A stretch of 61,969 bases of DNA from Pseudobdellovibrionaceae bacterium (GTDB lineage: Bacteria > Bdellovibrionota > Bdellovibrionia > Bdellovibrionales > Bdellovibrionaceae): NCBI GenBank assembly GCA_947449255.1, contig CANFQX010000019.1, positions 1 to 61,969 of the forward strand. The letters run 5' to 3'. The notes under the pieces are model-generated. The model had not been told where the DNA came from. It searched no databases and saw only the letters and a program-made list of their open reading frames with translations. The position numbers and the translations under genes are program-made. Positions 60,434 to 61,821 of the stretch are shown here, one piece after another. Position 1 is the stretch's first letter. The number at the start of each line of letters is the position of its first letter.

Positions 60434-60584
60434 TGGTCCACTAAATTGTTGATGCCAGATCTTTAAAACAGCTGCCCTTGGATTTGACCTAGCCTGGCCA
60501 TCCTGTGCGGCCTTCCTCAAGCGCATCGTGCGCTTGAGGCCTAAGCGTCGAATCAACAAGTTGCATCAACAATTTAAGGGACCA
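60434..60584. mobile_element. 151-bp MITE-like element with terminal inverted repeats
   Basis: 22-bp terminal inverted repeats (60434-60455 and 60563-60584) match at 20 of 22 positions, beginning TGGTCC and ending GGACCA, with a 13-bp uninterrupted block AAATTGTTGATGC. The interior contains the 46-bp palindromic core. No transposase and no clear target duplication were found, so it is either a non-autonomous element or a large structured regulatory site. Confidence 0.6.
60494..60539 (+). repeat. Extragenic palindromic repeat, copy 1
   Basis: A 46-bp unit. Its end is a palindrome with 11-bp arms (CCTCAAGCGCA, loop TCG, TGCGCTTGAGG). Matches copy 2 at 44 of 46 positions in reverse complement. 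Confidence 0.85.
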
Positions 60585-60714
60585 ATTTATAATTAATTTA
60601 ATTAAAATAGTAAGGTAAACAAGCAGTTAACTTAAAATTTTAAAAGAGATCTATTTTTTAGATAAATAATTTCCACAAGGTTTAAAGAATTTAAAATCAG
60701 AAAGAAATATTAAT

Positions 60715-61707
60715 ATGTCAGAAACAATCGACTATCAAAAATCCGGTGTAGATATCCAAAAAGCTGACGCCTTTATTGAAAAAATAAAATCTTTAGTTCC
60801 CTCAACTCACAACGAAAATGTGATTCAAGGGATTGGCGGTTTTGCTGCGCTCTATAAATTGAGCGAAGACAAAATGTTAGCCTCTTGCACCGATGGGGTC
60901 GGAACCAAGTTAAAACTGGCTCAGCAAATGAATAAACATCATGGCGTGGGAATAGATCTCGTAGCCATGTGTGTAAATGATTTACTTTGTGTTGGGGCAA
61001 GGCCCTTATTTTTCCTTGATTATATGGCTTTTGGAAAACTCAACTTAGAGGTCAGCGAAGAACTTATTGCTGGAATGGTTGATGGTTGTAAACAATCAAA
61101 AATGGCCCTCATTGGCGGTGAAACTGCAGAAATGCCAGGTTTTTATCAAAAAGATGAGTATGATCTTGCAGGTTTTAGTGTTGGGGAGCTCGCTCCCTCT
61201 GAAATGTTCAAAGAAGAAAATATTGAAGCCGACGATGTTCTTATAGGAATTGCTTCAAGTGGATTTCATTCCAACGGATATTCTCTATTGCGCCAGCTCG
61301 TGAAGGAAACAGAAACCAGCCTAATCCTTGAGCTCCTCAAACCAACAAAAATCTATGTAGACCTAGTCACAAAACTAAGAAAACAAATCCCCAGCGCGGT
61401 ACTTGCAATGTCTCATATTACAGGAGGCGGAATTCATAACATCCCCCGCATGAGTGAAAAATTTGATTATATCGTGGATCAGTGGCCATCCCTTGATGAA
61501 GTTGCTCCAGTTATTAAAACGATAGCAGGGCGCACAACTCTATCCAAGGAAGAGCTCTATAGAACTTTCAACATGGGCATAGGCCTGGTGATTTTAGTTA
61601 AAAAATCCCAAGCCGAATCAGTAATGAACCATCTCAAAGAGCAAAACGAATTAGCATGGCAAATAGGAAAAGTAAAAAAAGGCACCGGAGCCATCCAGTT
61701 AAGTTAA
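60715..61707 (+). CDS. purM: Phosphoribosylformylglycinamidine cyclo-ligase
   Basis: A 330-residue AIR synthetase that closes the imidazole ring of FGAM. Family motifs: TDGVGTKLKLA near 62-72, the MCVNDLL(C/V)xGA region, IGGETAEMPG, and HITGGGIHNIPR. Length is near normal (about 345). It is separated from the rest of the purine operon by the repeat-bearing gap and probably has its own promoter. The ribosome-binding site is weak (AGAAAGAAA). Confidence 0.96.
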   Translation: MSETIDYQKSGVDIQKADAFIEKIKSLVPSTHNENVIQGIGGFAALYKLSEDKMLASCTDGVGTKLKLAQQMNKHHGVGIDLVAMCVNDLLCVGARPLFFLDYMAFGKLNLEVSEELIAGMVDGCKQSKMALIGGETAEMPGFYQKDEYDLAGFSVGELAPSEMFKEENIEADDVLIGIASSGFHSNGYSLLRQLVKETETSLILELLKPTKIYVDLVTKLRKQIPSAVLAMSHITGGGIHNIPRMSEKFDYIVDQWPSLDEVAPVIKTIAGRTTLSKEELYRTFNMGIGLVILVKKSQAESVMNHLKEQNELAWQIGKVKKGTGAIQLS

Positions 61708-61775
61708 TCCAATAACTTCCAAAAAAAACTTATGCCCCCCCCCATCCTTTCCCTCGTATTTTACACAAACTTTGC

Positions 61776-61821
61776 CCTCAAGCGCACGATGCGCTTGAGG
61801 AAGGCCGCTCAGGACGGCCAG
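61776..61821 (-). repeat. Extragenic palindromic repeat, copy 2 (inverted)
   Basis: Reverse-complement copy of the 46-bp unit at 60494-60539, with two mismatches, 68 bases after purM. The palindrome itself is identical; the terminal inverted repeats that surround copy 1 are not present. Confidence 0.85.

Follow-up and report, generated by a model that had tools for sequence, protein, structure and literature searches.

A dispersed, hairpin-forming REP-like repeat around purM and elsewhere in a Pseudobdellovibrionaceae genome

The closest described systems to the repeat reported here are the REP/BIME elements of the GTAG super-family and the REPINs, which go with RAYT (TnpA-REP) transposases. 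Like them, the repeat is short, palindromic and intergenic, has tens of copies and can form inverted pairs. It differs in its length (about 86 nt, against 20-50 nt for a REP), in an extra conserved box and core, in holding CCTT instead of GTAG, in having no linkage to a RAYT gene and in being mostly single in its own genome. Group 3 REPs have a perfect stem with a 3-nt loop (PMC8266576), and the repeat shares both features. CGTC-tagged REPs (PMC3733652) are described as palindromic repeats without a dedicated transposase, which holds for our repeat as well; however, it has no CGTC by the stem, and its stem is 11 bp and its loop 3 nt, compared with 8-9 bp and 4-5 nt as given there. Among open-access papers on repeats of Bdellovibrio and predatory bacteria, searched by title and abstract with the genus guessed, no paper on this repeat turned up.

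Two copies around purM and the architecture of the repeat

The window is the whole stretch of 61,969 nt that was analysed. An earlier note on it had pointed to two inverted copies, identical at 44 of 46 positions, which flank purM and keep an exact palindrome with a 3-base loop. This description was confirmed: 44 of 46 positions agree between 60494-60539 (+) and 61776-61821 (-), and the palindrome CCTCAAGCGCA-TCG-TGCGCTTGAGG, with an 11-bp stem and a 3-nt loop, is exact in both. When up to 3 mismatches were allowed, the palindromic 25-mer found no site in the window other than these two, each of which matched on both strands, while none of 100 dinucleotide shuffles of the window gave a match. 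The inverted similarity between the copies reaches 56 nt with 91% complementarity. It turned out that the palindrome is the last 25 nt of the 46-nt match and that conservation extends over a unit of about 86 nt; a covariance model, R1, extends the two copies to 60464-60550 (+) and 61765-61850 (-). R1 was built from alignment A1, which holds 46 copies found with an early text pattern, not every place in the genome, and R2 is a broader model. The features are as follows.

58782..60338, + strand: purH (AICARFT/IMPCHase; PF01808, PF02142), upstream of copy 1
60430..60588, no strand given: a further mobile element, in which copy 1 lies, bounded by 26-nt terminal inverted repeats at 60430-60455 and 60563-60588 (88% complementary) and the same ends on other copies
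60464..60550, + strand: element copy 1 (box, variable stretch, core, palindrome), between purH and purM (R1 93.1 bits, E 9.6e-25)
60469..60481, + strand: conserved box of copy 1, CAGCTGCCCTTGG (from the sequence and alignment A1)
60515..60539, + strand: palindrome (hairpin 2) of copy 1, 11-bp stem, loop TCG (from the sequence and covariation)
60715..61707, + strand: purM (AIR synthase; PF00586, PF02769), between both copies
61765..61850, - strand: element copy 2, inverted, downstream of purM (R1 98.1 bits, E 3.0e-26)
61776..61800, - strand: palindrome (hairpin 2) of copy 2 (from the sequence)
61831..61845, - strand: conserved box of copy 2, CTGCTGCTCTGGGGG (from the sequence and alignment A1)

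In A1, the unit consists, in order, of a T-rich flank, the box CAGCTGCTCTCGG, 10-13 variable bases, the core TCTGGCCATCCTGAGCGGCCTT, the palindrome and a short tail GCNAAGT. The stem is 11 bp long in 41 of the 46 copies, and 39 of the 46 have the loop TCG. Within the genome, the outer stem pairs change together among copies, and 6 of 19 predicted pairs have changed on both sides. Copies in sister species have the same architecture with quite different stem sequences. To measure this, we used alignment A3, a hand-chosen set of 36 copies from five genomes (17 of our own genome and 19 from relatives; left out were L115, L123, whose end is truncated, and a partial match of 17.8 bits in L112). In A3, 96.2% of the cells pair, compared with 71.0% once shuffled and no more than 44.4% with the partners slid. 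The covariation score is 0.578 against 0.142, 89 cells have both-side changes against 27 after shuffling, and 8 of 10 stem pairs covary, counts which are inflated by the kinship of the copies. The palindrome stem is conserved as a structure, not as a sequence. A mutual-information scan also found one covarying pair in the core, at A3 columns 44-56 (GC 21, UA 10, AU 3, UG 1, AC 1), with one mostly conserved neighbour pair, and thus the core seems to fold too. For the 5' half, A1 alone gave a predicted first stem, which the wider alignment did not bear out and which we do not claim.

As to the two arms around purM, the earlier note had suggested that, if transcribed together, they could pair over the whole mRNA. 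The arm-to-arm duplex has a calculated energy of -100.3 kcal/mol against -25.1 and -28.8 for the local folds, and the minimum-energy fold of 60464-61850 pairs both arms. Pairing across purM would thus be thermodynamically possible, and we give it little weight, as local hairpins would form first and ribosomes would lie between the arms. Besides, a perfect 8-base tandem repeat (AAGCAAGG) at 61889-61969 runs off the contig end and may have broken the assembly there.

Copies in the genome and among relatives

To find how many copies exist, as the earlier note had advised, we searched the whole genome (3.21 Mb, 34 contigs). BLAST gave 40 scored matches, and the palindrome pattern hit 48 sites, compared with none for the reversed pattern. 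R1 gave 57 matches, which correspond to 55 places, since two of them (C25:14190-14277 and C1:205405-205464) read a place a second time. Each of the 48 palindrome sites lies in one of these 55 places, which indicates that the palindrome does not occur by itself. At 51 of the 55 places, the repeat is free of overlap with any ORF of 100 aa or more. The sequence is therefore a mostly intergenic repeat family.

The relation of the copies to their neighbouring genes was counted by hand, leaving out 9 array rows, so that 46 copies remain, 44 of them with a known upstream gene. In 35 of these 44, the upstream gene lies on the same strand. The non-array copies are found between convergent genes at 19 places and between divergent genes at 3, and between tandem genes the sense orientation prevails by 16 to 6 (p 0.052). 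The repeat mostly avoids promoter regions and sits at the 3' ends of genes. Insertion behind intrinsic terminators was rejected as a general rule, as a strong upstream hairpin was seen only at C4:16475 and the mean z was -0.39 for the 34 copies outside the inverted-repeat element. For the 31 single copies, the 5' flank is T-rich, with T at -7, -6 and -5 in 27, 29 and 29 copies and at -2 in 29, while a target duplication was not significant (4.39 against 4.10, p 0.088).

An R1 search of 59 genomes, our own included, gave matches in 6. One of these six, genome G031, probably matches by chance, as its match shows none of the element's parts. With R2, 7 of 24 same-genus genomes match: our own with 57 matches, G020 with 18, G013 with 9, G003 with 2, and G006, G009 and G019 with 1 each, the last being weak (E 7.8e-4). 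Accordingly, 6 of 23 sister genomes carry the repeat, and the remaining 17 of the 24 genomes gave no R2 match. The site at prs is occupied in our genome, and the prs regions of 23 relatives contain no element match. The relatives are about 74-79% identical to our genome over this region. No base-by-base alignment of the empty site is possible, so we infer the insertion and the exact ends of the repeat. Outside the genus, one strict pattern run against genome contigs gave 0 matches, in a search where records of our own genome or of near ones may be omitted and diverged copies missed; strict patterns, which may likewise miss diverged copies, found nothing in phages, plasmids and viral contigs.

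Five inverted pairs of 185-287 bp in all, with palindromes facing each other, occur in G020 and G013, in the arrangement which is called BIME or REPIN in REP families. The REP/BIME-like general character proposed earlier is thus borne out by true inverted pairs in sister species. Inverted pairing is not the usual form in our own genome, where most copies are single and a reduced dimer at C25:14197-14277 keeps box and core but lacks the palindrome. Nor do the window copies make up a REP pair, since another element, with terminal inverted repeats, encloses copy 1, and copy 2 stands alone. In G020, two loci (L134 and L135) show inverted element pairs bordered by another repeat (CCACTTCCATTTGGCAGT), and thus larger composite units exist in that genome.

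Capture in a second element and tandem arrays

Ten copies, including copy 1 of the window, are enclosed by the same terminal ends, and four more have such an end on one side. Because the same ends surround ten copies, the repeat is regarded as captured: a transposon-like element took it up and multiplied it. The repeat resembles MITEs in being non-autonomous, and these 10 copies with both ends and 4 with one end ride in a MITE-like element; unlike a MITE, the repeat unit itself has neither a terminal inverted repeat nor a clear target duplication. At C1:348343 and C17:24743 the terminal ends lead into other sequence. The former, from there to the contig end (L137, 1500-1763), may be an insertion sequence with the same terminal repeats as those around copy 1; its ORF has CxxC motifs, runs towards the contig end and has Pfam zinc-ribbon matches only below the cut-off.

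Nine copies form two same-orientation tandem arrays, on contigs C24 and C33, with a spacing of 0.6-1.7 kb. Between them lie toxin-antitoxin (BrnT), Fic, AAA/DUF4143 and other genes. In both arrays (L047 on C24, 1-5000, and L048 on C33, 2400-7610), the flanks are repeated too, over as much as several hundred bp. They contain a repeated hydrophobic ORF of 45-46 aa as well, which we would guess to be a type I toxin-like peptide. Capture and tandem arrays together indicate that the repeat has been multiplied by several routes.

How the repeat may have spread

We consider it fairly probable that the family is a REP/BIME-like repeat, dispersed, about 86 bp long and hairpin-forming, which is non-autonomous and mobilised in trans. 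The repeat would be a short DNA without a gene of its own, recognised through its folded hairpin and conserved flanking sequence, and an enzyme acting in trans would copy it into intergenic sites. The primary spread would be by transposition-like copying, with the hairpin as the feature that the enzyme presumably reads, and capture in the terminal-inverted-repeat element and tandem arrays would have multiplied it further. The lack of a clear target duplication is in keeping with REP-like insertion. Replication-strand (lagging template) bias is a mark of IS200/IS605-type single-strand transposition. Among copies outside the inverted-repeat element no such bias was found (18 of 33, p 0.73), nor among all copies (25 of 44, p 0.45; counted without C15:3634, which no stretch covers), and this counts against the reading, because a bias would be the usual outcome of a single-stranded HUH mechanism. 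No mobilising enzyme tied to the repeat was found, and the genome's single Y1 transposase gene is a candidate.

A first alternative, which we hold unlikely, is that the repeats are classical REPs and owe their spread to a RAYT (a Y1 HUH transposase), with that Y1 gene as the mobiliser. The perfect palindrome with its 3-nt loop, as in group 3 REPs (PMC8266576), and the inverted pairs in relatives speak for it. So does the Y1 gene itself: the genome encodes one Y1_Tnp protein above the cut-off of 23 (C6:100649, 24.7-25.4 bits), and all 7 carriers have at least one Y1 match. The gene proposed in the earlier note as the thing to look for is therefore present, but it adjoins no copy of the repeat, lying 73 kb from the sole element on its contig. 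The same holds more widely. No element was found within about 1.5 kb of 30 distinct Y1 loci (from 31 sources, of 79 matches; best E 0.35), and in the five clear carriers, G000 (our own genome), G020, G013, G003 and G006, each of the 10 Y1 genes either has no element nearer than 37 kb or sits on an element-free contig. Y1 matches occur in 21 of 24 genomes, in 7 of 7 carriers and also in 14 of 17 non-carriers; G022 has 12 Y1 matches and 0 elements. Repeats shared beside Y1 genes of the same genome were only partial matches, which we took for coding sequence. Neither GTAG nor GGAG was found up to 8 nt from the stem, whichever strand was read, in the 42 long-stemmed A1 copies or in 26 copies of A3; 37 of the 42 hold CCTT at the GTAG position, and CGTC was absent among the commonest stem-side tags listed. 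The absent strand bias also argues against RAYT. Spread by a RAYT, as proposed earlier, thus finds no backing in these results; without GTAG or GGAG and without an adjoining Y1 gene, the repeat is REP-like, not a RAYT REP.

Alternatively, the repeat could be a structured RNA selected in mRNA 3' regions as a stabiliser, attenuator or terminator, and not mobile at all, which we think distinctly unlikely. The same-strand upstream genes, the excess of convergent over divergent sites and the compensatory stem changes are what it would predict, and covarying stems, equally expected from a selected structured RNA, would count against the mobile-repeat reading. However, the presence of the repeat is patchy, its copy number is high in one species only, and the neighbouring genes seen are unrelated. 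Besides, the sense orientation between tandem genes is only 16 to 6, the terminator scan skips hairpin 2 of both window copies, and Rfam gave no match at the gathering score, with only chance-level ones at E up to 10.

That the repeat moves otherwise than by RAYT single-strand transposition, being copied through RNA as a very short bacterial retroposon, seems to us highly improbable. Such copying would fit the bottom strand, on which the structured unit ends in the conserved box and then an A-rich tail, the lack of a clear target duplication or strand bias and the location mostly at gene 3' ends.

There is only a slight chance that the repeats are attC-like integron recombination sites, with the C24 and C33 arrays as cassettes. 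The nine same-orientation copies with genes between them recall such arrays, and the repeat is like attC in occurring in oriented arrays and in conserving structure more than sequence. We rejected this reading, since no integrase above the TIGR02249 cut-off was found in the 24 genus genomes, where the best matches were partial; besides, 46 of the 55 copies are dispersed outside the arrays, the two ends of the repeat are not complementary, and the repetition of several hundred bp of flank makes tandem duplication the explanation of the arrays. A tyrosine recombinase gene at 27317-28093 (-) in the window matches the integron integrase model below the cut-off. Finally, a local inversion or duplication around purM, which the earlier note had named as its possible undoing should these be the only two copies, has next to no probability: one gene is flanked by two inverted copies, but the genome holds 53 further places, and the window copies differ in flanks and subfamily, with one of them inside the terminal-inverted-repeat element.

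In conclusion, the repeat family is evidently real and well structured; its general kind is known, and no description of it was found in the literature searched. What it contributes is a family defined by structure, whose stem sequence is free to change while the pairing is kept, and whose dispersal the REP-spreading enzyme of other genomes does not account for. Uptake by a terminal-inverted-repeat transposon gives REP-like DNA another route of multiplication, and a genus with carriers and non-carriers makes it testable what mobilises palindromic repeats that have no GTAG.
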